A stretch of DNA of 64,000 bases from NCBI RefSeq assembly GCF_016861655.1, contig NZ_BOLN01000008.1, positions 1 through 64,000 on the forward strand, in the 5' to 3' direction. How positions within the stretch are numbered: the first letter of the stretch is position 1; each line of letters starts with the position of its first letter. The DNA comes from Levilactobacillus lanxiensis. GTDB lineage: Bacteria; Bacillota; Bacilli; Lactobacillales; Lactobacillaceae. Under the pieces are notes generated by a model. The model ran no database searches. It was given only the letters and a program-made list of their open reading frames with translations, and was not told where the DNA came from. Below, piece after piece: positions 29,893 through 62,423 of the stretch. A program made the translations under genes and the position numbers.

Positions 29893-30103
29893 GGATGGGG
29901 CTGTCCGCCTCCGGCTTCCAGGGACTCCGCCTGCTGTGGGGAACGACTGCGGCCTGAGAACCGGTCCTCCGTCTCGCTTTAAAGCCGTGTAAACCACACG
30001 TCTTCAAAGTCGTCCCATGCTGTAAGCTGGAAAAATCACCAGCTAACACCATCGACACAGCTGGCTACGTTCCTGGCTTCCTACGGCTAACATAGCCCCA
30101 TCG
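29893..30103 (+). repeat. structured repeat R1 (type I, degenerate)
   Basis: Terminal arms GATGGGGCT (29894-29902) and AGCCCCATC (30094-30102) are complementary. The inner closing stem pairs GCTGTGGGG (29933-29941) with CGACACAGC (30053-30061). P4 is AGCTGG / CCAGCT (30025-30030 / 30039-30044). The end motifs GCCTCCGG and CCTACGGC are present. Plus orientation; its 5' end faces the membrane-protein start. Forms a convergent pair with R2. Confidence 0.75.
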
Positions 30104-30252
30104 ATAGACACTCAGCAACATGCTACAGTTTGACTTTATCCATATCACAAGCTGTCTCAGCAACTTGAGTCCAATCAGTAACTGGCCTCAGCCAACAATG
30201 ATATTGCTATAAAACCGTTCTCTACCACAAAGCTAGTGAAACTGCGCCAACA

Positions 30253-30445
30253 CGGCTAGTGTCAGTGACCAGAGGCGGATCAAAATGACCAGCTGTGTCG
30301 GTGGTCTTAACTGAGCGCTTTTCTCAGTTTAGAGCACGGGACGACCTTTGAGACCGCTCTATGGCTCAAAGTCGAGGTTCCAGACCGCACTTCGGCTGGA
30401 ACCGGTCCCCACAGCAGGGCTTTTTGAATCCGCCGCCGGGAACGA
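30253..30445 (-). repeat. structured repeat R2 (type I)
   Basis: Reads in the minus orientation. Closing stem GCGGATTCAAAAAGCCCTGC pairs with a right arm ending TGATCCGCC. P3 is CTTTGAG...CTCAAAG around 30346-30371 with the GCC..AGAGCGGTC loop. P4 is AACTGAG / CTCAGTT (30309-30315 / 30323-30329) extended by TCT/AGA. It begins 100 bp behind the ccpA stop, in the transcript-sense direction. Confidence 0.8.
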
Positions 30446-30544
30446 ACAACACACGCAACCGCGTACCAACACAGTTTTCACTAAAACAAAAATTATGTAT
30501 ATGAAAAGGTTCTGGAAACGGGTTCCGGAACCTTTTCATGACGC

Positions 30545-31546
30545 TTATTTAGTCGAACTCCGCTTCATTAACCCGTAAGGCAAGATAACGGTGTTCTCTT
30601 CAACTGTTTCGTTGTTCATCAGCTTCGTCAGTAGACGCATGGCAACGGCACCAATATCATACAAAGGTTGTGTGATAGAACTCATCTTAGGCCGAACCAA
30701 TTCAGTCAGCTTCGTATCGTTGCTGGTGATGACTTCAAATTCGCCAGGAACGTCGATGCCGGCATCCGTTAAGCCGTTCATCACGCCAGCAGCCAGTTCG
30801 TCGTCGCCGACAAAGGCAGCCGTGGCACCCACTGCGCTCAAGGCTGGTTCCAATGATTGGCCCGCCTTGTACGTGTAGTCCGTTTCAAAGACCAATTTGT
30901 CATCGTAAGCAATCCCTGCGTCCTTCAAGGCCTTCTTGTAGCCTTTCAACCGGTAATCGTGGTTGATGGCTTGGTCCATGGAGCCGGAAACGAAGGCAAT
31001 CTTTTCATTGCCGTGATCAATCAAATTCTTAACGGCTTCCGCCACAGCGGCTACATAGTCGATGTTGACACTAGGTTGCGCCTTTTCAGAATCCACGGAA
31101 CCAGCCAAGACAACGGGTGCCTTAGAACGCTTGAATTCTTCGCGAAGCTCATCGGTCACCTGATTACCCATGAAAATGATGCCATCAACTTGCTTAGCCA
31201 TCAAGGTGTTCAGCACTTGAACTTCCTTGCCGCCGTTTTCATCGGAGTTGGTCAAGATAATGTTGTACTTGTACATCATGGCAATATCATCGATGCCTCG
31301 CGCCAGTGATGAGAAGTAGATGTTGGTGACGTCTGGGATGATGACCCCAACCGTCGTGGTCTTCTTACTTGCTAAGCCTCGTGCAACGGCGTTTGGCCGG
31401 TAGTCAAGACGGTCAATGACCTCAAGCACTTTCTTTCGTGTAGCTGGCTTGACGTTGGGATTTCCATTGACGACCCGCGAGACGGTGGCCATGGAGACCG
31501 CCGCTTCCCGTGCCACATCGTAAATTGTAACTGTTTGTTTTTCCAT
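30545..31546 (-). CDS. ccpA: catabolite control protein A
   Basis: A 333-residue LacI/GalR regulator. The helix-turn-helix and hinge are VTIYDVAREAAVSMATVSRVVNGNPNVKPATRKKV (about 4-38) and YRPNAVARGLASKKTTTVG (about 47-65). The periplasmic-binding-like core (about 65-330) has IIPDVTNIYFSSLARGIDDIA. In Firmicutes CcpA binds cre sites with HPr(Ser-P) to repress or activate carbon catabolite genes. ATG at 31546 follows AAGAAAGGGC; longer readings run into the leader. Divergent from pepQ, the normal lactobacillus arrangement, with a cre site and promoter at 31607-31652 for autoregulation. Confidence 0.93.
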   Translation of the reverse strand: MEKQTVTIYDVAREAAVSMATVSRVVNGNPNVKPATRKKVLEVIDRLDYRPNAVARGLASKKTTTVGVIIPDVTNIYFSSLARGIDDIAMMYKYNIILTNSDENGGKEVQVLNTLMAKQVDGIIFMGNQVTDELREEFKRSKAPVVLAGSVDSEKAQPSVNIDYVAAVAEAVKNLIDHGNEKIAFVSGSMDQAINHDYRLKGYKKALKDAGIAYDDKLVFETDYTYKAGQSLEPALSAVGATAAFVGDDELAAGVMNGLTDAGIDVPGEFEVITSNDTKLTELVRPKMSSITQPLYDIGAVAMRLLTKLMNNETVEENTVILPYGLMKRSSTK

Positions 31547-31606
31547 AGCGATAGCCCTTTCTTCCTTGTTTTGGTTTGTTTTCATTCGTTTTCAAGCAAC
31601 TTGACC

Positions 31607-31635
31607 AGTATACAGAAAGTCAATCAGGGACGCAA
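31607..31635 (-). promoter_or_regulatory. ccpA promoter
   Basis: Minus-strand TTGCGT (31630-31635), 17-bp spacer, TATACT (31607-31612). Confidence 0.65.
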
Positions 31636-31638
31636 CAT

Positions 31639-31652
31639 TGAAAACGCTTTCA
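31639..31652. promoter_or_regulatory. cre site in the ccpA/pepQ intergenic region
   Basis: TGAAAACGCTTTCA matches the cre consensus TGWAANCGNTNNCA and is nearly palindromic. It lies 3 bp upstream of the ccpA -35 box, so CcpA should affect its own promoter there. The pepQ promoter is 345 bp away. Confidence 0.85.
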
Positions 31653-31994
31653 TATCAAAGAATACCTTAATTTCATCGAATTTTCAAGGCACATCTCCCC
31701 ATACGGTAGAATCTTTGGCCCTGATATTGTTTACTATAGGTCACTTTAACCGCGTTGTTAAGCCGTTTACAGAAAACAAAATCAATTAGCGGGTGATAAA
31801 AAATTAATCCGACCTTATTCGCTTGAATTATGAGAGATAGCTAATTTATATTTTTCATTATATAATTTCAATTATGCCAACATCAGCCTGCCCTGATATC
31901 CCAGCACTTTACGCCCGCGACCGGCCCGATTTCCGCGCGACATTTTGCGGGACGCGGCAGTCCTTTTCACGAGTGCAACTAGTCTCTGGCTTAT

Positions 31995-32002
31995 GCTATA
32001 AT
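31995..32002 (+). promoter_or_regulatory. extended -10 of pepQ
   Basis: TGCTATAAT, 27 bp before the pepQ start; no good -35 at the usual distance. Confidence 0.55.
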
Positions 32003-32029
32003 TAACACATCTTTTAAAGGGGTGATTGA

Positions 32030-33127
32030 ATGACTAAACTCGAACAAATTCAGCAATGGACCGCAGAACAACACGCTAGTATGACCTACCTCAGCAATCC
32101 CAAAACTATCCAGTATCTCACTGGCTTTGGGAGTGACCCGATCGAACGGGTATTAGCCCTGGTCATTTTCCCAGACCAAGACCCATTCATCTTCGCACCA
32201 GCCTTAGAGGTCGAAGTGATTAAGGCAACCGGCTGGCAGTTCCCCGTCGTTGGTTACTTGGACCACGAGAACCCCTGGGCAATGATTGCCGCTCAAGTCA
32301 AGCAACGCCACGTCAACCCCGACCACATCGCGTTGGAAAAGGGCCAACTTCAGGTTGCCCGGATGGAAGCCTTGGCTGCCCAATTCGACAATCCTAAATT
32401 TGATTTGGATATCACCAGCTTCATCGAACGCATGCGTTTGATCAAGTCGGCCGAAGAAATCAAGAAGTTGGAAATCGCCGGTAAGTGGGACGACTTCGCC
32501 TTTGAACACGGCTTTGCCGCAGTTAAGGCCGGTAAGACGGAACAATCCGCCGTTGCCGAACTCCAATACGCCTTGATGCAAGAAGGCATTATGGAAATGT
32601 CCTTCGGTAGCCTGGTTCAAGCCGGCGCCCATGCCGCAGAACCCCATGGTGCCACCAACGACACCAAGTTCCAGAACAACGAACTGGTGCTGTTTGACCT
32701 GGGAACGGTCTACGATGGCTACATTTCCGATGCGTCCCGGACGGTTGCTTTAGGCACCCCAACGGCCAAAGAGTTGGAAATCTACGACGTTTGTTTGGAA
32801 GCCCAATTGACTGCCCAAGCCGCCGTTAAGCCTGGCATGACCGCCGCTGAACTCGACAAGATTGCCCGCGACATCATCACCAAGGCCGGCTACGGCGAAT
32901 ACTTCATTCACCGGTTGGGCCACGGGATGGGCATGAGCGATCATGAATTCCCATCCATCATGGAAGGCAACGACCTGGTTCTCGAACCCGGCATGTGCTT
33001 CTCCATCGAACCTGGGATCTACATCCCAGGTGTCGCCGGCGTCCGGATCGAAGACTGTGTCCACGTCACGGCCGATGGCAGCTTACCATTCACCCACACC
33101 TCTAAGGAATTAACTTACGTTGGGTAA
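32030..33127 (+). CDS. pepQ: Xaa-Pro dipeptidase
   Basis: A 365-residue M24B metallopeptidase that cleaves Xaa-Pro dipeptides from casein-type peptides in the cytoplasm. An N-terminal creatinase-like domain (about 1-125) is followed by the pita-bread domain. Metal ligands are seen in LVLFDLGTVYDGYISDASRTVALG (two Asp), HRLGHGMGMSDHEFP (His), MCFSIEPGIYIPG (Glu) and GVRIEDCVHVT (Glu). AAAGGGGTGATTGA precedes the ATG. It is divergent from ccpA, as pepQ is in most lactobacilli, and has its own terminator. Confidence 0.93.
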   Translation: MTKLEQIQQWTAEQHASMTYLSNPKTIQYLTGFGSDPIERVLALVIFPDQDPFIFAPALEVEVIKATGWQFPVVGYLDHENPWAMIAAQVKQRHVNPDHIALEKGQLQVARMEALAAQFDNPKFDLDITSFIERMRLIKSAEEIKKLEIAGKWDDFAFEHGFAAVKAGKTEQSAVAELQYALMQEGIMEMSFGSLVQAGAHAAEPHGATNDTKFQNNELVLFDLGTVYDGYISDASRTVALGTPTAKELEIYDVCLEAQLTAQAAVKPGMTAAELDKIARDIITKAGYGEYFIHRLGHGMGMSDHEFPSIMEGNDLVLEPGMCFSIEPGIYIPGVAGVRIEDCVHVTADGSLPFTHTSKELTYVG

Positions 33128-33143
33128 TTAAATGATCAACAAA

Positions 33144-33186
33144 TAAGTTCTCGCCTTTCACGTTGAAAGTTGCGGGAACTTTTTCT
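33144..33186 (+). terminator. terminator of pepQ
   Basis: AAGTTCTCGC / GCGGGAACTTTTTC stem with a T-run on the plus strand. Confidence 0.8.
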
Positions 33187-33201
33187 TTTCACCGGCAAAA
33201 T

Positions 33202-33230
33202 AAAAAGAGCCACGACCGCAGTCGCAACTC
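33202..33230 (-). terminator. terminator of the YtxH-like gene
   Basis: GAGTTGCGAC / GTCGTGGCTC (three G-U pairs) followed by TTTTTATT on the minus strand. Confidence 0.75.
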
Positions 33231-33250
33231 CTAACTAGTCTTTGTTTAAA

Positions 33251-33646
33251 TTAAACAGGCTTGTCCGCCGTTGGTTCGTCGCTAGCGGGCGTTTCGTCGT
33301 TGTCGGCTTCATCAGCGGCATCGGCGTCTTCACTAGGTAAATCAGGAACCTGGTCGCTGCTCAAGACGATATCGTCGTCTTCATCTTCGGCCGTTTCATC
33401 GGCATCCGTGTTCCGCCAAGCTGGCGCATCGTTCTTACCGGCCAACCGGTCGTCTAAGGCTTCCTTGAAGTCGTCGGCGGCATCGGCTGCGTAAAATGCG
33501 TAGTCGACAGCGCGGTCCTTGAAGGCGTTGTACCGGTCACGAGCGGCATCCTTTAAGGCTTCGCGTTGTTCCAAGTCGAGGGCGTGGTAAGCCGCATAGG
33601 CTGCGCCACCCAGTACTAATCCTGCTAATAACTTGTGTTTTGCCAT
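33251..33646 (-). CDS. YtxH domain-containing protein
   Basis: A 131-residue protein. A short hydrophobic N-terminal segment (KLLAGLVLGGAAYAAYHAL, about 4-22) is followed by an amphipathic helical part with ALKDAARDRYNAFKDRAVDYAFYAADAADDFKEAL, then an acidic low-complexity tail rich in Asp, Glu and Ala. This matches YtxH-type envelope or stress proteins, often paired with a DUF948 partner, as here (26 bp upstream). ATG at 33646 is chosen because AAAGGGAG is eight bases away. Function unknown. Confidence 0.78.
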   Translation of the reverse strand: MAKHKLLAGLVLGGAAYAAYHALDLEQREALKDAARDRYNAFKDRAVDYAFYAADAADDFKEALDDRLAGKNDAPAWRNTDADETAEDEDDDIVLSSDQVPDLPSEDADAADEADNDETPASDEPTADKPV

Positions 33647-33672
33647 CTTCATGACTCCCTTTCCGTAAGCAA

Positions 33673-34077: not shown

Positions 34078-34218
34078 GACAACCCCTCCTTGTGCTCGTT
34101 ACTTACCAATAGAATAGCATTCTCAGCGCTTACACGCAATTAAAACCCCGAATTCGATTGGTTTTATTCAACAAGACTAGTAAAATATGGGATAGCGCTA
34201 ATTCTTAGGTCTCTGTCA

Positions 34219-34492
34219 TTCGCCTCCGGGAGGTTGAAAATTGAGCCGTGACGCTGTGGCGGGTCTGTCCGTTCCCGGCGGCGGGTTCAAAACGCCCTGC
34301 TATGGGGCCGGTTCCAGCCTAAAAGCGGGCTTTCACCTCAACTTTGCGCCTGAAGAGCGGTCGCAAAGGTTGTCCCGTGGGCTAGGCTGGGAAATAACCC
34401 CAGCCAAGACCACCGACACAGCTGGGCATTTTGACCCGCCTCTGGTCACTAACACTGACCGGTCTGGCTCATTTTCACCTACTCCGGGCGAT
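34219..34492 (+). repeat. structured repeat R3 (composite: type I inside type II ends)
   Basis: Outer arms of type II (GCCTCCGG...AGGTTGAAAATTGAGCC, 34222-34248; GGCTCATTTTCACCT, 34466-34480) enclose a type I unit that begins with GTTCCCGGCGGCGGG (34274 on) and ends with CCGCCTCTGGTCAC. Type I closing stem, P3 (CTTTGCG / CGCAAAG) and P4 (GGCTGGG / CCCAGCC, 34385-34391 / 34399-34405) are all paired. Convergent with R4. Confidence 0.8.
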
Positions 34493-34743
34493 GGACATTG
34501 CATTAACGACTATTAATTGAGTCACTAACTCGTCAGCCCTGTTTCAGTTGCTGTCACCAATCAATGGCTGGTCAATCAAATCGGACAACTAATCAGTTTC
34601 TTTTACATTATGTAAACCGGTATTTACTCAAGACTCCTCACTAATGAGTATCCTGTGTGTTCAACCTTGCTAACGAACATCTTGTTCAACCACAAACAGT
34701 TGCCAACCAACACTTTAAGAAATTTATTGACGGGCTAAATCCG

Positions 34744-34926
34744 TGTCAGCCGCAGGGCTGGTGAAAATAGGCTCAGCCGTGGGAGTTGCCTTAGCGGTTT
34801 ACCGCTTAGGCAACTGATATCTTTGAGACGTGATCTTCGGCTCAAAGTAAGCGCGGAGACCGCCCTTTGGCTCCGGGCGTGCGCCCACAGCGTCACGGCC
34901 TATTTTCACCAGCCCGGAGGCGATGT
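34744..34926 (-). repeat. structured repeat R4 (type II)
   Basis: Minus orientation. Arms CTGGTGAAAATAGG and CCTATTTTCACCAG pair perfectly. P3 is CTTTGAG / CTCAAAG. P4 is a 15-bp stem with one mismatch (34784-34798 / 34801-34815). The end motifs GCCTCCGG and CCTGCGGC are present. Its 5' end faces the mscS start, 52 bp away. Confidence 0.82.
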
Positions 34927-34977
34927 CAAAAACGTATTTAACCCGTAAAATCAAAAAAGAAAAGGAGGGCTCGTCTC

Positions 34978-35847: not shown

Positions 35848-35851
35848 CACG

Positions 35852-35888
35852 AAGCTTGACTCGAGTCTTCTGGGGTCAAGCTTTTTTT
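35852..35888 (+). terminator. terminator of the mscS-like gene
   Basis: AAGCTTGAC / GTCAAGCTTTTTTT hairpin immediately behind the stop. Confidence 0.85.
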
Positions 35889-35893
35889 GCACG

Positions 35894-37787: not shown

Positions 37788-37789
37788 GC

Positions 37790-39878: not shown

Positions 39879-40152
39879 TCGCCTCCGGGCCGGTGAAAAC
39901 TGAGCCGTGACGCTGTGTCAGCTGTCCGTTCCCGCCGGCGGGTTCAAAACGCCCTGCTATGGGGCCGGTTCCAGCCTGAGAACCGGGCTTCCACCTCAAC
40001 CTTGCGCCTGAAACCCGGTCGCAAAGGTTGTCCCGTGGGCTAGGCTGAGCAAAAACCTCAGCCAAGACCACCGACACAGCTGGGCATTTTGCCCCGCCTC
40101 TGGTCACTTATACTGGCCAGCTCGGCTCATTTTCACCAGTCCTGCGGCTGAC
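39879..40152 (+). repeat. structured repeat R5 (composite: type I inside type II ends)
   Basis: Type II outer arms CCGGTGAAAACTGAGCCG (39890 on) and CGGCTCATTTTCACCAG (40123 on) enclose a complete type I unit. Type I closing stem, P3 (CCTTGCG / CGCAAAGG) and P4 (GGCTGAG / CTCAGCC) are paired. GCCTCCGG opens and CCTGCGGC closes it. Near-copy of R3. Convergent with R6. Confidence 0.82.
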
Positions 40153-40396: not shown

Positions 40397-40575
40397 GTAA
40401 GCCGTGAGGGCGGGGAAAATACTCTCAGTTGGGGGATTTTCTAAGTGCTTCCCTTAGAAAATGGCGACTTTGAAACTCGTTTCTCAGAGGTTCAAAGCGA
40501 GGTTGAAGACCGCTTCTCAGGCTTCAGCCGTCCTCCCCCTAACGTTCCAGAGTATTTTCCCCGCCCGGTAAGGCG
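40397..40575 (-). repeat. structured repeat R6 (type II)
   Basis: Minus orientation. Arms GGGCGGGGAAAATACTCT and AGAGTATTTTCCCCGCCC pair perfectly over 18 bp. P2 is TGAAG..CTTCA with the GCCTGAGAAGCGGTC loop. P3 is CTTTGAA / TTCAAAG. P4 is ATTTTCTAAG / CTTAGAAAAT (40436-40445 / 40453-40462). It starts 10 bp behind the mutS2 stop. Confidence 0.85.
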
Positions 40576-43879: not shown

Positions 43880-44060
43880 TCGCCTGCGGTAGACAGATAC
43901 ACCGACCGTGGGGGCCAATCAAAGCCTGTGAACCGGTCTTTGACTTCGACTTTGAGCTTCGAAAAATCCGAATCTCAAAGCTCGCCCGTGGTGTAATACC
44001 GGAAATTCACCGGCCTAACACCACCGACACAGGTCTACGTATCTGTCTACCTCCGGCTAC
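43880..44060 (+). repeat. structured repeat R7 (type I, variant stems)
   Basis: Terminal arms GTAGACAGATAC (43889-43900) and GTATCTGTCTAC (44039-44050) are perfectly complementary and unlike those of any other copy. Ends GCCTGCGG and CCTCCGGC. P2 has AAAGCC..CGGTCTTT; P3 is CTTTGAG / CTCAAAG; P4 is GTGGTGT / ACACCAC (43988-43994 / 44018-44024) plus CCGG / CCGG. The CCGACACAG motif is present. Confidence 0.83.
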
Positions 44061-44206
44061 ACTCACACTGGCTTTCAGCCATTTTAACTGCAACGTTTTC
44101 TGTCCGACAGTTTCATCATCCGCTAAATACACTTTAAACTGCCACTTCCACCCACTAGCAAGCCACCCATTTACCTGTTAATCCCACCAAATTTTCTCGT
44201 CATACA

Positions 44207-48464: not shown

Positions 48465-48704
48465 CTAAACGTTCGGGAAAACTTTGGGGTGAACGCCAGC
48501 TGTCTGCATCGCCTGCCGGACGGCCAATCGGCTTAGACTGGTTTGGGGCGTTCCCGTCTGAACTTATTTGTCGTGTGTTTAAGCTTATTGACGGTTGTGT
48601 AGGACCTGGCTTCCCTTGATTGGCTGCATCTTTGCTGGCTGTGCTGGCTTACTGCGCTATTCTTGCTCTCGCCAGTCTATTCGGAAACTTGCGGCTTCTG
48701 AAAC

Positions 48705-51256: not shown

Positions 51257-51434
51257 CGCCTCCGGGGTGAGAAAAATTGGACCGGAACGCGGTGGGCAGG
51301 ACGTCCAGAGCCAAAGAGCGGTCTCTGAACTCGCTTTGAACCTCTGAGAAACGAGTTTCAAAGTCGCCATTTCTTAAGGGTTCCCCTTAAGAAATCCCAC
51401 GGCTGAGTCCATTTTTCCCACCCCTGCGGCTGAC
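51257..51434 (+). repeat. structured repeat R8 (type II)
   Basis: Arms GGGGTGAGAAAAAT and ATTTTTCCCACCCC pair with one mismatch. Ends GCCTCCGG and CCTGCGGC. P2 pairs CAGAG with CTCTG around GCCAAAGAGCGGTC. P3 is CTTTGAA / TTCAAAG. P4 is ATTTCTTAAGGG / CCCTTAAGAAAT (51369-51380 / 51384-51395), 12 bp perfect and unlike other copies. Lies midway between nrnA and dinB. Confidence 0.85.
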
Positions 51435-51553: not shown

Positions 51554-52660
51554 CTACTCATCGCCACTAAACAGTGGCAACTTGACGTTTTCAAAAGTTT
51601 GCGCGGCTAGTCCGGTTAGCGTGATGCCCAGCAAGCGGACCTGCTCGTCATCCCTGGCCACGCTGTGGTAGAGGTCCAGGGCTAAGTCGTAATAGATGTT
51701 GGCGTCGTTGGCAATGAAGTCCGTTTGGGTCACGCGCTTCGTGATGGTGTTAAACTCGCTGTCCCGTAGTTTGAGCACCAGCGTCTTACCGTGCCGTTGC
51801 TTTTGTTTGACCGTTGCCGCGACCATTTCTGCCAGTCGTTGCAATTGTGTTTCCACCTCACCGACCGACGACAAGGGTGGCCCATACGTGCGCTCCTTGC
51901 CAATCGACTTGCGTTCGCGCAGATACTCGACCGGCCGCTCATCAATACCGCGTACCCGTTGATACAAAATGTAACCGAACTTACCGAAGTCGTGGATCAA
52001 TTCCAATTGGGATTTTTGATACAGGTCCGCCCCGGTTTGAATGCCCAGCTCATGCATTTTAGGCACGGTCTTCTTGCCCACGCCCCGGTAACGTTCAATC
52101 GGCAACCCCATCAAAAAATCGTGTGCGTCCTCCGGTAGAATCACGCTCACGCCGACCGGCTTACGGAAGTCCGAGGCCTCCTTGGCCAGAAATTTACTAT
52201 AGGAAATGCCGGTCGAACAGGTCAAATGGGTCTTATCAAAAATCTCCACCTGAATCTCGTGAGCCACCTGAACCGCCGAGCGGATGTGTTTCTTATTCTC
52301 CGTGATGTCCAAGTAGGCTTCATCAAACGCCACGGTTTCAATTTTATCCGTGTACTCATGAAAAATTTCGTGAATCTGGTCGGAAATTTCGCGGTAATGG
52401 GGGAAGTCTGGGGTCTTATACGTCGCGTGCGGGGCCAGTTTAAACGCCTCGTTGGCATTCATGGCGGAATGCACGCCTAGCTGTCGCGCCACGTAATTGG
52501 CCGTGGTCACAACGCCGCGACCGCCAGTCGTTCGGGGATCTCTGGCAATGATCAGCGCGTGACCCTTGAACTCGGGGTGGTCCCGTTCTTCAATCGACGC
52601 GTAAAACGCATCCATGTCGACGTGAATGATTTTTCTTTGCGTGTATTTTTCTGGGACCAC
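51554..52660 (-). CDS. dinB: DNA polymerase IV
   Basis: A 368-residue Y-family translesion polymerase. [21 protein letters not shown] (about 10-30) holds the first catalytic Asp, [11 protein letters not shown] (about 106-116) the other acidic pair, [21 protein letters not shown] (about 142-162) the nucleotide-binding site; [18 protein letters not shown] is the helix-hairpin-helix. The C-terminal KLPLF resembles a beta-clamp-binding motif. The GTG at 52660 follows AAGGAGGGG. A LexA-type box lies in its promoter 420 bp upstream, so SOS induction is likely; R9 lies between promoter and start. Confidence 0.93.
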
Positions 52661-52708
52661 AGCCGTCCCCTCCTTTCCACGATGTAACAAAACGCTTGTC
52701 GAATCGGT

Positions 52709-52908
52709 ACGTTCCCGGCAGCGGATTCAAGGTGCCCTGCTGTGGGGAACGGTTCCAGCCTGAGGGGCGGTCTTCCACCTCGCCAGGAAACCTCGCAAAG
52801 ATTCGCGAGTTTCCCTGGTCGTCCCGTGCTCTAGGCTGTAAAACCACCAGCCAAGAGCACCGACACAGCTGATCACCTTGATCCGCCTCTGGTCACTTAG
52901 ACTAGCCA
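52709..52908 (+). repeat. structured repeat R9 (type I)
   Basis: Closing stem GCGGATTCAAGGTG.. pairs with ..CACCTTGATCCGC. P3 pairs CCAGG.AAC..CGC with GCG.GTTTCCCTGG. P4 is GTGCTCT / AGAGCAC (52826-52832 / 52854-52860) plus GGCTG / CAGCC; here a mismatch seen in most copies is a G-C pair. Plus orientation, 49 bp before dinB and inside its predicted leader. Confidence 0.85.
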
Positions 52909-53069
52909 TTTTTTACAACAACTTTTATTTAAGCTTTTAATTAACTGTATGAATATGGGCTGTCTGCGCGAACAACATGATGTTTCACCCCCAAAAGGCC
53001 TGAATTAACCGTTAACCCACCAGGTCTAACTGAGCATTCACCGAACTATTACTGTTTATTAGTATATAA

Positions 53070-53098
53070 ATTATACCCAAACAAACGTTTGTCTTCAA
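53070..53098 (-). promoter_or_regulatory. dinB promoter
   Basis: Minus-strand TTGAAG (53093-53098), 17-bp spacer, TATAAT (53070-53075). The spacer contains the LexA-type box. Confidence 0.75.
53078..53091. promoter_or_regulatory. LexA/DinR-type SOS box in the dinB promoter
   Basis: CAAACAAACGTTTG matches the Gram-positive box CGAACRNRYGTTYG at 13 of 14 positions and fills the -35/-10 spacer, a position suited to repression. Confidence 0.75.
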
Positions 53099-53165
53099 TC
53101 AAAAGCCGTTATCTTTTTCCCGTAATTCTTCGGCTTTTACTCACCGTTCACTCAAAATTTGGCCG

Positions 53166-53191
53166 AAAAAAAAACGGCCTCTAGGAGACCG
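53166..53191 (-). terminator. terminator of yajC
   Basis: CGGTCTC / GAGGCCG followed by nine T on the minus strand. Confidence 0.9.
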
Positions 53192-53205
53192 AACTTTTTG
53201 ATGTC

Positions 53206-53655
53206 TTATTTAGCTGAGTCATCGTCAGTTTTTTCAGCAGTTTCGTCACTTACAGCGGCGTCACTTGCTGGTTCTTCAGTGGCATCTTCAGCGGGTTGAT
53301 CCTCGCTGGCTGCTTCACTGGTTGCGTCGTTAGCGGCTGGGGCCGTAACGGCTTGTGGTGCTTGAGACGTTACTTGGGCAATGGCACGCAAGTCAAAGAC
53401 CAAGTAGATCCCGTCGCAATCCAAGGTAACCGTTTGGTCAGCTTGGTTGATTTCGTCGATCACACCGTGTAACCGGCCAATCGTGATGACGTGGTCGCCC
53501 TTTTTAAGTTCGCTCATCATGTCACGATGCTTCTTTTGTTGTTTTTGTTGTGGACGTAACATTAAGAAGTACATCAACCCCAAGAAGACAACTAAGATAA
53601 TCAACGTTGAGTAACCACCGGCAGCGCCAGCAGCAATATTTAAATTATCAAACAC
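53206..53655 (-). CDS. yajC: preprotein translocase subunit YajC
   Basis: A 149-residue YajC. The membrane helix is YSTLIILVVFLGLMYFLML (about 15-33), followed by RPQQKQQKKHRDMMSELKKGDHVITIGRLHGVIDEI (about 34-69), the conserved core. The last 50 residues are an Asp/Glu/Ala/Ser-rich tail, longer than in Bacillus. YajC joins SecDF at the Sec translocon. It has its own short upstream region of 154 bp behind ruvB and is followed by a strong terminator. Confidence 0.9.
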   Translation of the reverse strand: MFDNLNIAAGAAGGYSTLIILVVFLGLMYFLMLRPQQKQQKKHRDMMSELKKGDHVITIGRLHGVIDEINQADQTVTLDCDGIYLVFDLRAIAQVTSQAPQAVTAPAANDATSEAASEDQPAEDATEEPASDAAVSDETAEKTDDDSAK

Positions 53656-53809
53656 ATTTGTTCACCCCTTTATATTCTATCTATTGGACAACTTTACCAG
53701 AATACGGGGAATCCGTCCAATTATTTCTAGAAATTCTTTAGACGTTCGGCATTGCCGCGTACTTTCAGAAACGGCTTGTCACCGCGGACGGACGCTATCG
53801 ATCAGGCGC

Positions 53810-54832
53810 TTAACCATTTTCCTGTTGTGGGAATTGGCGGCCGAGATGTTCATACCCCGCCGGCGTGACGACCCGTCCCCGGGCTGTGCGTTTCAAATAC
53901 CCGCGCTGCAGGAGATAGGGCTCGTACATGGCCGCGACAGTTTCCGTTTCCTCACCGACATTGGCCGCCAAAGTATTCAACCCGACTGGTCCACCATTAT
54001 AGTAATCGATCATGGTTTCCAACAGCTTGATGTCAGTGGCGTCTAGCCCGGCCGAATCCACTCGCAGTAATTTCAGCGCATGGTTCACGATGGCTAGGTC
54101 AATCTCGGTATGATCAGGCGAGACTTCCGCAAAATCCCGAATCCGTTTCAACAAGCGGTTCGCAATTCGGGGCGTGCCCCGTGAGCGTAAGGCAATCTCG
54201 TGGGCCCCCTCAGTTGCGATGCGCGTGTTAAAAATGTCCGCCGACCGCGTCACAATTTCTTGGAGATCTTGCGTTTGGTAGTAAGCCATGTGTTCCACGA
54301 TGCCAAACCGGTCCCGCAACGGTGCGGACAACAAGCCGGCCCGGGTCGTGGCCCCAATCAGCGTGAATGGTGGCAACGGGAAGTGCACCGGATGGGCGGT
54401 TGGCCCCTGCCCCACCACGATATCAATGTAGAAATCTTCCATTGCGGAGTAGAGCATTTCCTCAACAATTTTCGGTAGCCGGTGAATTTCATCAATGAAG
54501 AGAATATCCCCCGGTTGCAGTTCGTTGAGTAAAGCCACCAGGTCGCCCGGCTTTTCAATCGCCGGACCACTGGTCGTGCGGATGTGTACGTCCATTTCGT
54601 TAGCAATCACCATCGCCAAGGTCGTCTTCCCTAAACCAGGTGGTCCATACAACAGCACGTGGTCCAAGGATTCTTCCCGTTGCTTGGCCGCCTGAATGTA
54701 GACGGACAATTCGTGTTTGATGGGGTCCTGACCGATATACTGGGCCAGGGTTTGCGGTCGCAATGATTTTTCAATCGAGTCTTCGTTATCATCCGCTGGT
54801 TCCGGTGACACGACACGTTCATCATCAGTCAT
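53810..54832 (-). CDS. ruvB: Holliday junction branch-migration ATPase RuvB
   Basis: A 340-residue AAA+ motor. Walker [19 protein letters not shown] (about 63-80), Walker [11 protein letters not shown] (about 111-120), sensor/arginine-finger segment [21 protein letters not shown] (about 155-175), and the winged-helix end [20 protein letters not shown]. Works as a hexamer with RuvA on Holliday junctions. RuvA ends 21 bp upstream, so the pair is one operon, probably SOS-regulated. Confidence 0.96.
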
Positions 54833-54853
54833 GGGTCAGCCTCCTTTCAAAAA

Positions 54854-55459
54854 CTAGTTTGTCAATAAACGTAAGCCTTCGCTCAGATAATCATTGGTCG
54901 AGTCGCCGGCAAATTTCCGCAACTGCGGCGTGATTTTTTTAACGGCAGCGGCCTTGTATCCCAGTGCTGTCAAAGCCGCAATCGCGTCATCCAATTTCGG
55001 ATTTCCCTCGCCAGTCGTGACGGCTTCGGGTGTGAACAAGGCCCCATCGTCGACTGGTGCCAGGTCATCCAACTTGTTCTGCAGGTCCAAGACAATCTGG
55101 CCAGCAGTCTTCTTCCCAATTCCGGGGAACTTCGTCAGGAAGCTGATATCGTTGGTCTTAATCGCCAACATCAGCCCTTGATGGTCCGGATTGGCCAGAA
55201 TCGCCAGTGCACTCTTGGGCCCAATACCGTTAACGTTGATTAATTTTAGGAACAATTGTTTTTCAGCAAAATCTGCGAAACCGTAAAGGGTCTGCGCCGT
55301 GTCACTCACCGCCTGATAGACGTAAATCGTGACTGGTGTGGTGCCAACGGCGTAGCGGTAAGGGTTAGCGGTATTGACCAGATAACCCACCCCGTTAACG
55401 TCAACGACCACGTGGTCCGGATAGACCGCCGCAATCGTGCCATGAAGGTATTCATACAT
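54854..55459 (-). CDS. ruvA: Holliday junction DNA-binding protein RuvA
   Basis: A 201-residue RuvA. The OB domain (MYEYLHGTIAAVYPDHVVVDVNGVGYLVN) is followed by two helix-hairpin-helix units (LINVNGIGPKSALAIL near 72-87 and FPGIGKKTAGQIVLDLQNKL near 107-126) and the RuvB-contacting domain III (ALTALGYKAAAVKKI). ATG at 55459 is chosen because AAAGGAGAC precedes it. Its transcript probably starts near 55835 and so reads through R10. Confidence 0.95.
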   Translation of the reverse strand: MYEYLHGTIAAVYPDHVVVDVNGVGYLVNTANPYRYAVGTTPVTIYVYQAVSDTAQTLYGFADFAEKQLFLKLINVNGIGPKSALAILANPDHQGLMLAIKTNDISFLTKFPGIGKKTAGQIVLDLQNKLDDLAPVDDGALFTPEAVTTGEGNPKLDDAIAALTALGYKAAAVKKITPQLRKFAGDSTNDYLSEGLRLLTN

Positions 55460-55509
55460 GCCAGTTAGTCTCCTTTGCGCTTGCATCCAGGTAAATGACC
55501 GGATCAGTT

Positions 55510-55760
55510 AGCTAGTAAAAACGAAGTCGGGCCGATGCTTTCGTTCCCGGCGGCGGGCTCAAACTGCCCTGCTGTGGGGAACGGCTCCAGCCTGAGAAGC
55601 GGTCTGGGGCCTCGTCTTGAAACCTCGCTAAGAATCACGAGTTTCCAAGGCCGTCCCGTGCTCTAGGCTGAGAAAAATCCCTCAGCCAAGACCACCGACA
55701 CAGCTGGTCAGTTTGGCCCGCCTCTGGTCACTTACATTGGCCGAGACATTTTTACTAGCT
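55510..55760 (+). repeat. structured repeat R10 (type I with extended outer stem)
   Basis: Outermost arms AGCTAGTAAAAA (55510-55521) and TTTTTACTAGCT (55749-55760) pair perfectly and are unique to this copy. Next come TCGG.CC.ATG / CATTGGCCGA and the type I closing stem GGCGGG.TCAAACTG / CAGTTTGGCCCGCC. P2 pairs GGCTCCAG with CTGGGGCC. P3 pairs CTTG.AAC..CG with CG.GTTTCCAAG. P4 is GGCTGAG / CTCAGCC (55666-55672 / 55681-55687). Confidence 0.87.
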
Positions 55761-55817
55761 CAAAACTGACTGATTGTTAGCCAGCCTCAAGCGTCTTATT
55801 CATCTATCTATCTTTAA

Positions 55818-55832
55818 GAAAACATATGTTTG
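55818..55832. promoter_or_regulatory. LexA/DinR-type box upstream of ruvA
   Basis: Minus-strand CAAACATATGTTTTC matches the SOS box at about 12 of 14 positions, just downstream of an extended -10 (TGGTACAAT, TACAAT at 55842-55847). Likely the SOS-controlled ruvAB promoter, 360 bp before ruvA. Confidence 0.6.
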
Positions 55833-55984
55833 CTTTTTTAAATTGTACCACACTTGGCTCAACTTAGACTATAGATTCTGTTCTGAGTTTTCTGACGCCA
55901 AAAAATAGAATCTAGCCCAGCAATAACTGAGCGGTTAGCCGGAGACAGTCAACTGGGACAAGCAAAGCAAAAACAAAAGCGAAC

Positions 55985-56191
55985 CGAATAGGTGGTCATT
56001 CTGGAGGCAGCTAAGGCCCACACCTGTGTCGGGGACCTTAGTCGGTGTTTTTCGCCGGCTTAGGTCCCGGGACGACTTTGAGATTGCGCTCTTGGCAAGC
56101 TCAAAGCGAGACTGAAGACCGCTCTTTGGCTTCAGTCGGTCCCCACAGGTGTGGGCCTTAGCTGCCGGAAGAATTTAAGACCACCTATTCG
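55985..56191 (-). repeat. structured repeat R11 (type I; outer arm contains the mutL stop)
   Basis: Arms CGAATAGGTGGTC (55985-55997) and GACCACCTATTCG (56179-56191) pair over 13 bp, then 22 bp of GCAGCTAAGGCC... pair again after an internal loop. The right arm includes the last codons and stop of mutL (56185-56187). P2 pairs ACTGAAG with CTTCAGT; P3 CTTTGAG with CTCAAAG; P4 GGGACCT with AGGTCCC (56032-56038 / 56062-56068). CCGACACAG is present. Confidence 0.87.
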
Positions 56192-58185
56192 CCCCAGTCG
56201 TCGCCGGAGTGGTGTGGATCCTGAATCCGTTTAAACAGCTTTTCCAAGTCCTGATCCGTGAAATGGACCAGCACTGGTCGGCCGTGAGGACAGTTGAACG
56301 GGTTCTCCGCTGTGGATAATTTCACCAGTAAAGCGCGAGCCTGCTGGTCGTCCAGGTGATGATTGGCCTTGATGGCGCGCTTACAGCTCATCATGATGGC
56401 CGTCTTTTCCCGGAAAGCCGCCACGGAAATCTTGCCGTCCTTTAAGACCCAGTCAATCATTTCTTTAATGGTATCGGTCTCCTGCCCGGCCTTGAACCAA
56501 GTTGGGTGTTCGTGCACGATGAAACTATTCGGGCCAAATGACTCGAGGTTGATGCCCACACTAGCTAACGTTTCCAAGTGATTGGTCAGTTCCAAGACGT
56601 CCGTCGTCGGGTAATCCAAGACGATGGGCACCAACAATTTCTGCTCGTCATCGCTGACCTCGCCGATTGCCTGGCGGTAGAACTCATAGTTCACCCGTTC
56701 CTGTGCGGCGTGTTGGTCGACTAAATATAGCCCATCATCGGCCTCGGCCAACAGGTACGTGCCGTGGACCTGCCCCAGGTAGCGTAACTGAGGGAAGCGT
56801 TGGGCTGGCGGTTCGGGCGCCGTCAATGAAACTTCGGCGACCGGTTCCTCAACGGGCGGCGTTGACCCACCCAGGGGTGCGGCAACCCGTTCCGTTTGAT
56901 ATTTCTCATCAAATTCCTGGACGGCTGGCAATTGGAAATCCTGCTTGTCATGCACGACCACAGGCTCAACCGGGACCTCTTCTGGCGTGCTCAACGGTTG
57001 CGGGCCAGCGGCCGGTGTTGCGGCTGGTTGCGCCGGTGTAGGCGTTGATGCCGCACTCTCGGCCGGTTGTGGCGCTGGCTGGGTGTGGCGCGCCGACATA
57101 TCATACTTGGCCGAGACGTCGTTTAACGCCATGGTCAGTTGATCCGTGGTGGCGGCTTCCCGCTTTTTCGTTGGCATTTCATCGAAGACATCCGGAATCA
57201 AATTCTCCCGGGAAAGCCGCTTGAACACGGTGTCCTGAATCAGCTGCGTCAGTTCCGGCTCTTCACTGATGCGGACCTCTTGCTTGGTTGGATGCACGTT
57301 CACGTCCACCAGTAAGGGGTCCATTTTAATATCCAGTACGGCCAGCGGGTAACGGCCGACCATCAGCTTGGACCCGTACCCGGCAATCAAAGCCTTGCTC
57401 AATTGAAAATTGTGAATGTACCGGCCATTTAGCAGTAACGAAATGTACTGCCGACTTGCCCGCGTCAACTCGGGCAAGCTCACGTAACCGCTCACCTGAA
57501 AATCTGGGTTCTTGCCATTGATGGCTACCATCTTCCGGGCGCTCTGGACGCCATAAATGCCGGCAATCACCTGTTGCAGGTCGCCCCGCCCGGCTGTCCG
57601 GGTAAGCTCACGACCGTTGTGGACCAGGGAAAACGCCACGTCGGGATAGCTTAAGGCCAGCCGGTTGACGATATCCGTGATCCGGGCTAGCTCGGTGGCT
57701 GGTGATTTCAAATACTTCAAGCGTGCCGGCACGTTGCCAAAGAGGTCCTTGACGGTAATCGTGGTCCCCTTGCGAGCGGCCGCGGCGGTGTGTTCCTTGA
57801 TGATGCCGCCCACGTTGTGAATCAACGTGCCAACACTCCCGGTCGAGGTCGTCATCGTGACGTCGGCCACGGAAGCGATACTAGGTAGGGCTTCACCCCG
57901 GAACCCCAGGGATTTGATACGAAAGAGGTCCCGCCGGTCGGTAATCTTACTGGTGGCGTGGCGTTTGAAGGCCATCTCGGTATCTTCATCCGCGATGCCG
58001 TCCCCGTCATCAACCACGGTAATCCGTTGTAACCCGGCCTCCTCGACCGTGATATCAATCTGTTTACTGTGGGCGTCGACTGCGTTTTCGACCAGTTCCT
58101 TGACCACGGATGCGGGCCGTTCAACCACTTCACCCGCGGCAATCTGGTCGGCTAAGACCGACGCTAATTCATGAATTTTGGCCAT
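56185..58185 (-). CDS. mutL: DNA mismatch repair protein MutL
   Basis: A 666-residue MutL with intact GHKL ATPase motifs: [16 protein letters not shown] (about 31-46), [12 protein letters not shown] (about 56-67), [14 protein letters not shown] (about 92-105). The C-terminal domain carries the endonuclease motif [12 protein letters not shown] (near 490-501), [12 protein letters not shown] and FNCPHGRPV, so it should nick DNA itself, as expected where MutH is absent. The linker (about 345-470) is Pro/Ala/Glu-rich and low complexity. ATG at 58185 follows GGAAGGG. Its stop lies in the arm of R11. Confidence 0.95.
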
Positions 58186-58214
58186 CAACGACCCTTCCTC
58201 TCATTGCGTAAATA

Positions 58215-58438
58215 AAAAATGGTGGATGCATCCGTTCCCGACGGTGGATTCAAGGTTCCCTGCTGTGGGGCCCGCTTCCAGCCTGAGAAACGGTCTTCCA
58301 GCTCGCCTTGAAGCCTGGAAAATCACCAGTCTCCAAGGTCGGCCCGTGCTCTAAGTTGAGAAACACACTCAACTAAGACCACCGACACAGCTGAGAACCT
58401 TGATCCACCTCTGGTCACTCACATCGACCACCATTTTT
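58215..58438 (+). repeat. structured repeat R12 (type I with extended outer stem)
   Basis: Outermost arms AAAAATGGTGG (58215 on) and CCACCATTTTT (to 58438) pair perfectly. Closing stem GGTGGATTCAAGGTT.. pairs with AACCTTGATCCACC. P3 pairs CCTTG..CTGG with CCAG..CAAGG. P4 is AGTTGAG / CTCAACT (58354-58360 / 58368-58374), a double-sided change from GGCTGAG / CTCAGCC. Its 5' end is 30 bp before the mutL start. Confidence 0.87.
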
Positions 58439-58583
58439 CATTGTCTTACTTTATTATCACGATAATTTGTTTTTAGTTAGCCTAGCGCCATTCGCAAACA
58501 ATTTTAGGTTATCTCTGCTAAATCTGCCACCCAAACGACTCGTAGTCCCTTTTGGCCAGCCAACTTAACATCATCAAAGCTGT

Positions 58584-61289
58584 TTACTTCTTCGCCAATT
58601 TCTGTTGCCATTGGTAAACCTGGTTCATGATGGCCATTGGGGTCATCCCCATCAGGTTCAGGTCGGAAATTTGTGCCAGCACCTTGGCCTGAGCCGGATT
58701 CAGCTCTGGCTCTTCCGTGAACAACGAGAGCTGTTGATCGGTAGCTGGTTCTGCCGGCTCGCTTGGTTCTGGGGTTGGTTCGCTGACAGCCGGTTCCGGC
58801 TTAACTGTCTCTGCCGGTTGCTCCTGCACGGGAGCCGTCGATTCTGATGCCGTTGGGGCCGTTTGAATAGGTGCCTGCGCCGTTTCTGGTGTGGACAGGG
58901 GTTGGTCCTCAGCTGACTGTTCCAGGTCCTCTAAGATGACCTCAGCACGGTCTAACAGCTTCGTTGGCATCCCGGCCAATTTGGCCACGTGAATCCCGTA
59001 AGACTTGTCCGCGGGACCCGGTTGCATTTGGTGTAAGAAGACCAGGTCGCCATCGCGTTCGACAGCGCCCACATGGACGTTGCGTAACTGCTTTAAGGAC
59101 TGGTCTAACGCCGTTAACTCGTGGTAGTGGGTTGAGAACAACGTCTTGGCGTGGACCCGGTTGTGAACGTATTCGATAATGGCCTGGGCCAGCGCCATCC
59201 CGTCATACGTGGCCGTGCCCCGCCCGATTTCATCGAATAAGATCAGGCTGTTGGCGGTAGCTTGACTCAACGCGTGGTTGGCCTCTTGCATTTCCACCAT
59301 GAAGGTACTTTGCCCAGAAATCAGGTCATCTGCGGCCCCGATTCGGGTGAAAATTTGGTCAAAGATGGGCATCTGGGCGGACTCTGCGGGCACGAAACAC
59401 CCCATCTGCGCCATAATTACGGTCAGGGCCAGTTGCCGCATGTAGGTACTCTTCCCGGACATGTTCGGCCCGGTAATCAGTAAGATGTTGGTTTGTTCAT
59501 CCATCATGACATCATTAGGGACGTATGATTGACGACCCAAAACCTTTTCGACCACGGGATGTCGGCCCTGTTTAATGGCTAAATTATGCCCTTCAATCAA
59601 CGTTGGCTTGATGAAGTGATAGTCCTCGCTGACGACGGCAAAACTTTGGAGCACGTCTAGACTGGCAATAGCGGCGGCTAATTTCTGTAGCCGGGTGATG
59701 GCCAGTTTAACCTGTTCACGCAGATCAACAAATAATTTATATTCCAGCGCAACGGATTTCTCCTCGGCCTCTAAGATCAAGCGTTCCTTATCCTTCAGCT
59801 CAGGCGTTGAGAACCGTTCGGCGTTAGCCAGCGTCTGCTTTCGTTCGTACCGGTCAGCCGGCAATTTGTCCAGGTTGACCTTGGTGACCTCGATGTAGTA
59901 CCCGAAGACGTGGTTGTAGCCAATCTTCAGGTTATTGATCCCGGTTACTTCACGTTCGTGGGCTTCCATTTCGGCCAGCCAGGTCTTCCCGTTACGCATG
60001 GCATCGCGGTACTCGTCCAATTGGGCGTTGAACCCATCACGAATCACCCCACCGTCGGAAACGGAGATTGGGGGTTCGGGCACAATGGCCTCCCGAATGG
60101 CCGCCGCGACATCTTCCACGGGGTCCAATCCGGCCAGCGTGTCATCAAAGACCGGTTCGTCCAGCTCTTCAATCGTGTGCTGGATTTGTGGTACCTGTTC
60201 CAAGGACGTTTGCAGCTGGATTAAGTCCCGGCCGTTTACGCTTCCGAAGGCTACGCGCCCGGCTAAGCGTTCCAGGTCATAGACCTTAACCAATTCTTCC
60301 TGCAAATTATTGCGTTCAAAATAGTGGTCGAGTAACGCGCCGACCTTGTCCTGCCGTTCTTCAATCTGTTGCCGGTCAATCAGCGGCCGATCTAACCATT
60401 GCTTCAGTAGCCGCCCCCCCATGGCCGTCTTGGTTTGGTCCAAGAGCCACAGTAAGGTCCCCGATTTTTTCTTGGTTCGTAAGTTCTGGGTGATTTCCAG
60501 GTTGCTTTGTGAGGAATGGTCCATCTTCAAAAAGGCGGTTGGTCGGTAAGCCACGGCCCGTTGTAAATGCGCCAGACTGCGTTTCTGCGTCACCGTCACG
60601 TAGGTCACCAGGACACCAACAACTTGCTTCAGCAAATCGGTCTGTAGGTCCTGCTCCACGTAACTGAGCTCGGAACTTGATTGAATCTCGTCTTGATTAG
60701 AAATCATCATGCCGAGCTGTTTCATCCGAGCCTTCAACTCATCGTCAATCGTGGTATCCACGACGACTTCCTTGGTCTGCAGGCTCATTAATTCATTCAT
60801 GACGGGGTCGTCACCACTGATTTCAGCGGCCTTGAGTTCCCCGGTCGACAAGTCGGTGTAGGCCAAGCCGTATTGTGACTTAGTGCTCATGGTTAGGGCG
60901 GTCAAGTAGTTGTTCCGCTTGGCGCCGGCAGCGCCGGTATCGGTCTGGGTCCCTGGGGTCACCAGTTGAATGACCTCTCGCTTAACCATTCCCTTGGCTA
61001 ACTTCGGGTCCTCCATTTGTTCACAAACGGCAACCTTGTAGCCCTGATCCACCAAAATGTCGATGTAGTTTTGCACGGCCTTGTGCGGCACCCCACACAT
61101 CGGAATCGGGTTCTTGGCACTGTGACTCCGGGTCGTCAACGTCAGCTCCAGCAATTGCGAACCCTTGACGGCGTCTTCATTGAACATTTCATAAAAGTCC
61201 CCGAGCCGGTAGAACAAGAACGCATCGGGATACTGATCTTTAATCTTTTGGTACTGCACCATCATGGGCGTCGTGTTCGTTTTCGTCAT
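58584..61289 (-). CDS. mutS: DNA mismatch repair protein MutS
   Basis: A 901-residue MutS. The mismatch-contact motif is [13 protein letters not shown] (about 22-34). Walker A is [31 protein letters not shown] (about 608-638), Walker [29 protein letters not shown] (about 683-710) with the dimer His in [10 protein letters not shown] Pro/Glu/Thr-rich low-complexity insert (about 800-855) precedes DQQLSLF, a canonical beta-clamp-binding motif, and a terminal dimer helix. It recognises mismatches and recruits MutL. AAGGATG is the likely ribosome site. It lies 28 bp behind ymdB. Confidence 0.95.
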
Positions 61290-61317
61290 GAAAAATGGTT
61301 CATCCTTCCGTTATCGT

Positions 61318-62112
61318 TTAGCTTTGGTACGGGTGTTGTGGGCTGATCAAGATTGGCTTGATGCTAGCCGCGTGCCCCGTTTTATCGTTTAAGTCAATGA
61401 CGGCACCGGAGAGAATTCCGGGACCGACTTCTTGGACCGTGTAGCGGGTTGGCCGTTGGTTTTCAAAGCGTTCGATGACGCTATCGGCCTGCATCCCCAA
61501 AACACTGTCGGCGGGACCGGTCATGCCGGCTTCGGTCATGAAGGCCGTGCCGCCACGCAGAACCTGCGCGTCACTGGTCTGCACGTGCGTATGGGTGCCA
61601 ACGACGGCGGAAACCTTACCGGCATAGCGCATCGCAAAGGCCCGTTTCTCACTGGTCGTTTCCGCATGGAAATCAACGAAGACAAAATCCGTGTCCAGTT
61701 CTGGCAGTAACTCCTTCATTTTCGCAAAGGGATCGTCCATGGGGTTCATGAAGACCCGGCCTTGCATGTTGACAACGGCCAACACTTGTTGGTTCACTTT
61801 GACCTTCGTCCAGCCCTGTCCCGGCGTATCACCAGGGAAGTTAGCGGGCCGAACTAGCCGGTTGGCGCCACCAATGAAATCATAGAGTTCGGCGTTGTCC
61901 CAGGTATGGTTTCCCATCGTGACCACATCGGCGCCATCTTTTAAGAGCTGCTTGTAAATACTTTGACTGATACCGCGACCAACGGGGGTTGAATTTTCCC
62001 CGTTGACGATGGTGACTTGGGGCTTTAAGTCCCGCTTTAATTGGGGGAGGTACTCATGAATCATATCCACACCAATATTTCCAACAACGTCACCAACAAA
62101 TAAAATACGCAT
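61318..62112 (-). CDS. YmdB family metallophosphoesterase
   Basis: A 264-residue TIGR00282/YmdB protein: ILFVGDVVGNIGVDMIHEYLPQLK (about 3-26), VNGENSTPVGRG (about 37-48), VVTMGNHTWDNAELYDFI (about 60-77), FVDFHAETTSEKRAF and VGTHTHVQTSDA (about 175-186). In Bacillus it hydrolyses 2',3'-cyclic nucleotides and influences biofilm and mRNA turnover. Placement beside rny is conserved. AGGGGAACGAAG precedes the ATG. Confidence 0.92.
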   Translation of the reverse strand: MRILFVGDVVGNIGVDMIHEYLPQLKRDLKPQVTIVNGENSTPVGRGISQSIYKQLLKDGADVVTMGNHTWDNAELYDFIGGANRLVRPANFPGDTPGQGWTKVKVNQQVLAVVNMQGRVFMNPMDDPFAKMKELLPELDTDFVFVDFHAETTSEKRAFAMRYAGKVSAVVGTHTHVQTSDAQVLRGGTAFMTEAGMTGPADSVLGMQADSVIERFENQRPTRYTVQEVGPGILSGAVIDLNDKTGHAASIKPILISPQHPYQS

Positions 62113-62232
62113 CTTCGTTCCCCTATCTAGACCGTTTTGGCCCGCCTGGCTCTTGTGACCAGTTCTCGTAAATAACCTCTATTTTACCATGGTTTTTCTA
62201 ATCCTGCGTGAGTTAAATCTGAGCTAATCCCC

Positions 62233-62423
62233 CGTTCACGCACCTCCGGACTGGTGAAAATGGGATTGGAACGCGGTGGGCGGACGTCTGAAGCCTGAGG
62301 AGCGGTCTTCAGACTTACTTTGAGCTGCTAAAAACGCATCTCAAAGATACCAATTGTCTAAACGGCCAGCCGTTTAGACAATTCCCACGGCTGAACCCAT
62401 TTGCACCAGCCCTGCGGTTAACG
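62233..62423 (+). repeat. structured repeat R13 (type II)
   Basis: Arms CTGGTGAAAATGGG and CCCATTTGCACCAG pair with one mismatch. P2 is TCTGAAG / CTTCAGA around GCCTGAGGAGCGGTC. P3 is CTTTGAG / CTCAAAG. P4 is ATTGTCTAAACGGC / GCCGTTTAGACAAT (62353-62366 / 62369-62382), 14 bp perfect. Ends ACCTCCGG and CCTGCGGT. Midway between rny and ymdB. Confidence 0.86.

Follow-up and report, generated by a model that had tools for sequence, protein, structure and literature searches.

A predicted folded core of intergenic repeats in Levilactobacillus, shared with gene-less mobile units of related genomes

Introduction

The stretch of DNA analysed here, a 64-kb window from a Levilactobacillus genome, raises the question of what a series of 13 structured repeats lying between its genes represents, and of what keeps their fold. 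The initial annotation described them as one family with a common plan, argued from matched changes for selection on a folded RNA or single-stranded DNA, and recognised no named RNA family in them. A Pfam scan of 20 neighbouring proteins returns mostly housekeeping functions, among them MutS2/Smr, RuvX, IreB, a DEAD-box helicase, DHH, an IMS polymerase, YajC, RuvB, RuvA, MutL, MutS, YmdB, RNase Y and others, and the 64-kb window holds no tRNA.

Results and Discussion

The window samples a genome-wide family

We built a covariance model of the core, termed R2, and counted window matches at E ≤ 1e-9. The model finds exactly 13, between 29934 and 62390 (Table 1), so the structured family is real; one additional match, at 20370, has an E-value of 0.21 and falls outside the 13. 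Nine of the cores score 102-137 bits, and the other four, which we call type II, score 44-58 bits. Repeat searches also recover a repeat family in the gaps of 29.9-62.4 kb, and two junction words are more frequent in the window than expected, CGACACAG with 10 occurrences against 2.1 and GTCCCGTG with 8 against 2.6, some of them beyond the repeats. The first 29.9 kb (1-29900) contain no R2 match with E < 0.2, and the 13 fall in the next 32.5 kb.

Table 1. Cores matched by R2 in the window; the strand given is the favoured folding strand in all rows.
Feature	Position	Strand	R2 score (bits)	Remarks
Core	29934..30060	-	122.7	
Core	30293..30414	+	121.8	Divergent pair with 29934-30060
Core	34300..34421	-	120.4	
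Type II core	34777..34890	+	44.6	Divergent pair with 34300-34421
Core	39957..40079	-	122.8	Query of first genome search
Type II core	40431..40538	+	55.8	Divergent pair with 39957-40079
Core	43906..44032	-	102	43903-44064 absent from G012 (indel), one element end kept there
Type II core	51290..51402	-	44.1	
Core	52740..52868	-	125.6	
Core	55572..55703	-	131.1	ruvA side of ruvA-mutL gap
Core	56024..56148	+	113.4	ruvA-mutL gap, adjoins mutL stop; divergent pair with 55572-55703
Core	58263..58390	-	136.9	mutS-mutL gap
Type II core	62274..62390	-	58.2	

The count of 13 therefore holds for the window and not for the family, of which the window is a local sample: R2 finds at least 150 copies in the genome, each with E ≤ 4.3e-26, which rules out a local 13-copy family. 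Scaling 13 per 64 kb to 3.03 Mb gives about 600, an extrapolation and not a count, and a 681-base query matches 65 places in the same genome. That the element belongs to no named RNA family was borne out for Rfam 15, which has no match at gathering scores across the window; at a loose threshold, positions 52600-58500 give five matches (best E 0.4), all under gathering scores. No known Rfam or MITE family was matched.

The core covaries and favours one folding strand

From 55 diverse cores cut from the window and from relatives, 45 were chosen and aligned on the strand opposite to that written in the initial annotation. The plan given there, a closing stem and three hairpins with compensatory changes, stands up well: 95.3% of 1748 cells are paired in the proposed structure, and two-sided change is seen in 28 of the 39 pairs, a level reached in none of 500 shuffles. 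Cells with two-sided change number 248, against 70 in shuffles, and all five measures lie above every one of 500 shuffles; when partner columns are slid by one to three positions the paired share falls to 28-50%. Covariation was judged here by shuffles and by the comparison of orthologs described below.

On the favoured strand the predicted anatomy runs, in its 5' part, CTGTG-TCG-(long hairpin P4)-GGGACGA-(hairpin P3), and continues in its 3' part as CGAG-(hairpin P2)-CG-NN-CCCC-ACAG-3', the fold being closed by arms of variable length. Of the 45 copies, 42 retain a U-U mismatch within P4. Hairpin P2 has either a 3x3 GGA/GGA loop or, replacing that whole block, three Watson-Crick pairs.

The choice of strand comes from the wobble pairs. 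Across the 45 cores, G-U outnumbers A-C by 89 cells to 14 with helix P1b excluded, two inner P1b positions (24 A-C against 1 G-U) having been omitted from the structure. When the model itself is used to align 150 copies, which biases the alignment toward the structure, the counts are 162 and 14; three columns give most of the G-U, and without them the counts are 41 and 14, with 20 columns leaning to G-U and 4 to A-C. The strand as originally written is also the less stable in 12 of 14 copies by fold energy. In three window cores, however, each of the two strands outperforms shuffles in folding (z -3.2 to -5.1 for one and -3.3 to -4.1 for the other), so that energy alone leaves the strand unsettled. 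The favoured folding strand is thus the reverse complement of the one first written, the strand on which G-U is kept over the A-C mismatch, and the original strand is disfavoured by both the pair counts and the energies.

Pairing is kept at orthologous sites

We compared 79 pairs of orthologous copies, each flanked on either side by 250 bp or more of alignment, some places being repeated through three-way comparison. Two-sided changes that keep a pair number 100, where random placement of the changes gives 14.8 (sd 3.5), and one-sided breaks number 45 against 161 expected; one-sided changes that keep the pair (49 against 98) and two-sided broken pairs (9 against 11.6) complete the comparison. 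Kept two-sided changes occur in both gene contexts, with 54 in 29 sense pairs and 31 in 20 antisense pairs. Divergence averages 0.094 in the cores and 0.078 in the flanks, and this slight excess, together with the clustering of the changes, suggests that gene conversion may contribute to core divergence.

These features bear on an account in which nothing functional is selected: template switching would copy one arm onto the other, copies would convert each other, and paired changes would be mutational in origin. The unevenness of the changes speaks for it, in that 46 of the 79 pairs have no two-sided change and some have up to six, while in 18 of the 79 the divergence of the core is over twice that of the flanks. 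We nevertheless regard it as quite improbable. Copying of arms would erase the U-U mismatch that nearly all copies retain, and the excess of G-U over A-C exists on one strand only. Moreover, when fast cores and helices with more than two two-sided changes are removed, the remaining strict subset of 57 pairs keeps the excess, with 27 kept two-sided changes against 2.9 and 13 one-sided breaks against 53.7.

Covariation beyond relatedness, as expected of a functional RNA, is therefore found in the shuffles, the ortholog pairs and the strict subset alike. Because matched changes keep the pairs at the same sites, the predicted fold probably has a function, whether in RNA or in single-stranded DNA. 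The covariation, the strand asymmetry and the compensatory changes at orthologous sites support the selection on a folded strand that was first proposed.

The core is carried by mobile units in related genomes

In two further genomes of the genus, G033 and G030, the end sequence CTGAAGGTTGAAA occurs 109 and 112 times, and in G003 10 times; the reversed pattern occurs 2, 5 and 4 times, respectively. We read 20 G033 copies and 20 further stretches of G030 and G033, and delimited units with such ends, allowing at most one mismatch, in the loci examined. Of the 29 units obtained, 22 abut a duplication of 7-8 bp, compared with 1.1 on shuffling (maximum 5 in 500); the core motif is present in 21, of which 17 have the duplication, and unit length is 220-741 bp. 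The unit L349, sequenced through here from end to end in the reading, consists of an inverted type II fold, then a spacer, then the core, and the alignment of the G033 copies contains several units like it and others with a different 5' part.

Units with other ends occur in G365, a genome of another genus assembled as one 2.71-Mb contig, where 20 copies align past the core. Both ends are present in 19 units, GTGGTGCTAGTTGATTTTT with at most five mismatches and TTTAACTAGCACCAC with at most four; these units are 251-361 bp long with duplications of about 9 bp, and 13 of the 19 have a common flank repeat with a score of at least 6, against 1.94 after partners are shuffled. The element common to these lineages is the folded core, whereas ends and duplication length vary by lineage. 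The 5' part of the G365 unit was examined in 30 copies, five of which (L285, L319, L321, L335 and L338) are without the core, and one of these, L285:1501-1687, is a 187-bp unit with both ends present and the core cut out.

By their ends, their duplications and the absence of genes, the units of G030, G033 and G365 are miniature inverted-repeat transposable elements (MITEs): all three genomes have units with terminal inverted repeats, short and without a transposase of their own, and target-site duplications are found in both sets, in the numbers given above. Ends and duplications in the relatives make the core a structured module of MITE-type units. No transposase or autonomous element lies between matching ends in the stretches examined, and the mover of these units is probably a transposase acting in trans. 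In one G030 stretch, L391:906-2967, two matching ends stand 2062 bp apart without a target duplication; the reading frames between them resemble genes for a methyltransferase and for a phosphatase of the PAP2 type, which we take to be ordinary genes.

The window copies are different in this respect. They have no matching ends, the other two end types are absent around them, and none of 59 candidate end pairs of window type has a duplication. A further sequence, GGGTTAAAC, is weakly enriched around the copies, and was rejected as the end of window units on account of this weak enrichment and the lack of duplications. The window copies thus fall outside MITEs as defined by ends and duplications and are tied to the units by core homology alone; they may descend from such units.

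The same features could be read to mean that, in the species group of the window, the copies have become settled host boundary elements that serve local gene expression and no longer move. Besides the missing ends, the avoidance of genes fits this, just 4 of 268 distinct copies touching an open reading frame of at least 200 aa, as does the fact that, in comparison with the closest genomes, some differences are deletions with element ends left in place. We consider such a role highly improbable, given that orientation shows no transcription bias and that the same core sits in target-duplicating units of the same genus. As to orientation, the best 150 matches give 148 distinct cores from the named loci and the window; the 133 of these with a neighbour on each side divide into 45 sense, 40 antisense and 48 other, which likewise rules out a transcription-driven orientation.

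Filled gaps and paired copies

The surroundings of mutL were compared in 30 of 35 genomes of the genus. The mutS-mutL gap measures 17-87 bp in 22 of them and 389-619 bp in 8, and the filled gaps hold one strong core (G000, G012, G026), a strong and a weak match (G003, G030, G033) or weak matches only (G015, G018). Since the eight filled gaps differ, elements entered or replaced one another there more than once. In the ruvA-mutL gap of the window, conserved ruvA-upstream sequence sits between the two copies, so not every pair need be a single insertion. The corresponding gap of G020 (L059) contains four cores, three on the same strand and two nearly identical, and represents a tandem duplication of local origin, while the adjacent mutS-mutL gap is empty.

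Twenty-four indels were compared among loci, 16 once repeats were removed; several are deletions or replaced stretches, four show an alignment overlap of 3 to 30 bases, and no clean empty site with a clear target duplication is among them. Between the window and G012 (L051, L052), one genome lacks the element interior with the element ends kept, G012 having the loss at 43903 and the window at 48527; these are deletions at the foot of the inverted repeat.

Neighbouring copies are arranged with marked regularity. In a set of 277 of 282 matches (268 distinct), 232 cores lie in 146 gaps; the 45 two-core gaps comprise 35 divergent, 10 tandem and no convergent pairs, and where a gap holds a single core, the 3' side points toward the nearer gene in 70 of 82 cases. 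The latter also holds in 56 of 68 cases in G365, and in G003 all 15 neighbouring copies less than 700 bp apart diverge. If the rest of the unit lies on the 5' side of the core, the rule of the 3' side would follow from unit anatomy, and we do not take it as a sign of function. Divergent pairs within one gap fit compound units, and several young Levilactobacillus units hold two folds back to back, which would explain both the divergent pairs and the 3' side facing the nearer gene.

RNA or single-stranded DNA

Taken together, the best explanation, to which we would give about an even chance, is a core on gene-less mobile units that acts as a folded RNA from one defined strand. The 13 repeats of the window would be copies of one core with a predicted fold, which in relatives is carried by short gene-less units, and the acting form would be RNA read from that strand of the core, in preference to single-stranded DNA. 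Fixed G-U positions, purine-rich loops, U-U mismatches and GGA/GGA loops are typical of RNA, and dozens of copies of the core have G-U at the same fixed places; RNA is preferred for the fixed G-U positions and the purine-rich loops, and as the acting form we put it at even odds.

The main rival supposes the same mobile units with a strand that folds when exposed, in replication, uptake or transposition, and a protein that reads the fold. We hold this to be possible but on the whole doubtful. The strand preference is unchanged by the direction of neighbouring genes (G-U against A-C 56:3 in sense and 38:3 in antisense copies); host-mRNA read-through is thus not its cause, and this speaks for single-stranded DNA. 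Nor is a promoter of the core's own seen: promoter scans leave one unsupported. For copies at gene 3' ends the best upstream promoter score is not higher in sense than in antisense (n=96, p 0.49), with strong promoters in 10 sense and 17 antisense cases (n=96); at gene 5' ends there are 19 sense and 8 antisense (n=93, p 0.03), a slight excess such as ordinary gene promoters would give. Scores in young units are not above shuffles, and a weak TTGAC-16-CACA.T at 51-52 nt is common to 8 of 36 of them.

Replication gives a divided picture for single-stranded DNA. In G365, 57 of the 79 copies listed have the folding strand directed against the replication fork (Fisher p 1e-4), fork direction being assigned on the assumption that the origin is at the contig start, the site of DnaA- and DnaN-like reading frames; gene context there has no bias matching that of the replication halves. 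G003, however, has no replication bias (p 0.29, 90 strong matches). It also counts against this rival that a folded single strand is not required by units whose target duplications are DDE-like, and we know of no fold-reading protein here.

A bolder possibility, which we offer only tentatively, is that the core is an independent folded module captured by different transposon frames across the Lactobacillaceae and multiplied by them, here to at least 150 copies. It would then be a bacterial counterpart of SINEs, a mobile structured RNA with its own partner protein, whose fold is kept in place because it is useful at each site.

Relation to known systems

REP and REPIN sequences have hundreds of intergenic copies, and their inverted pairs form larger units; the element resembles them in its many intergenic copies and inverted pairs. 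REPs are palindromes of 20-40 bp (PMC3733652), whereas the core has three hairpins and a length of about 125 nt. Among MITEs, folding transcripts are reported for Correia/NEMIS, ERIC and others (PMC10969869), and the element resembles these in being short, gene-less, intergenic and present in many copies, and in the terminal inverted repeats and target duplications of the relatives' units. It is unlike them in that the core is multi-branched and strongly covarying, with pairing held at orthologous sites, and in that one core is common to units with different ends and duplication lengths across genera. No parent insertion sequence was found for the units in the stretches examined. With Rfam structured RNAs the core shares a covarying multi-helix consensus, unlike them in having no Rfam match. 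The element is undescribed in the open-licence literature searched, including PMC2267715 and PMC10969869, and may be described elsewhere.

What is new, then, is a fold kept in place and common to units with different ends. The initial interpretation is supported as to selection on a folded strand, described the disfavoured strand, and missed both the mobile units in relatives and the fit of divergent pairs to compound units. The element occupies at least 150 places in the genome, also inside operon gaps such as mutS-mutL, and its fold is kept where it is sited. If it acts as RNA, it would rank with the structured RNAs of highest copy number so far known from bacteria; if as single-stranded DNA, it would point to an unknown fold-reading protein. 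The presence of the same fold in units with different ends makes the question of its reader testable.

Distribution across genomes

R2 matches occur in 34 of 35 Levilactobacillus genomes, G021 being the sole exception, and at least 98 copies are present in 16 of these. With a query of 296 bases, matches are found in 24 of 58 genomes, its own included, all of the same genus, and all 80 hits of an exact-pattern scan among the matches listed are Levilactobacillus, the species among them being L. mulengensis, L. wangkuiensis, L. cerevisiae and L. suantsaiihabitans. One blastn query each gave no match in plasmid and phage records. Across the Lactobacillaceae, 110 of 397 genomes have R2 matches, representing 11 of 40 genera, and across the order they occur in 21 of 395 sampled genomes, all 21 of them Lactobacillaceae. 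Sixteen chosen genomes from seven other genera have from 4 to at least 150 copies each. Five genomes (G016, G094, G105, G135 and G153) contain many matches of about 95 nt that span the whole model, perhaps a subtype with a shortened hairpin.
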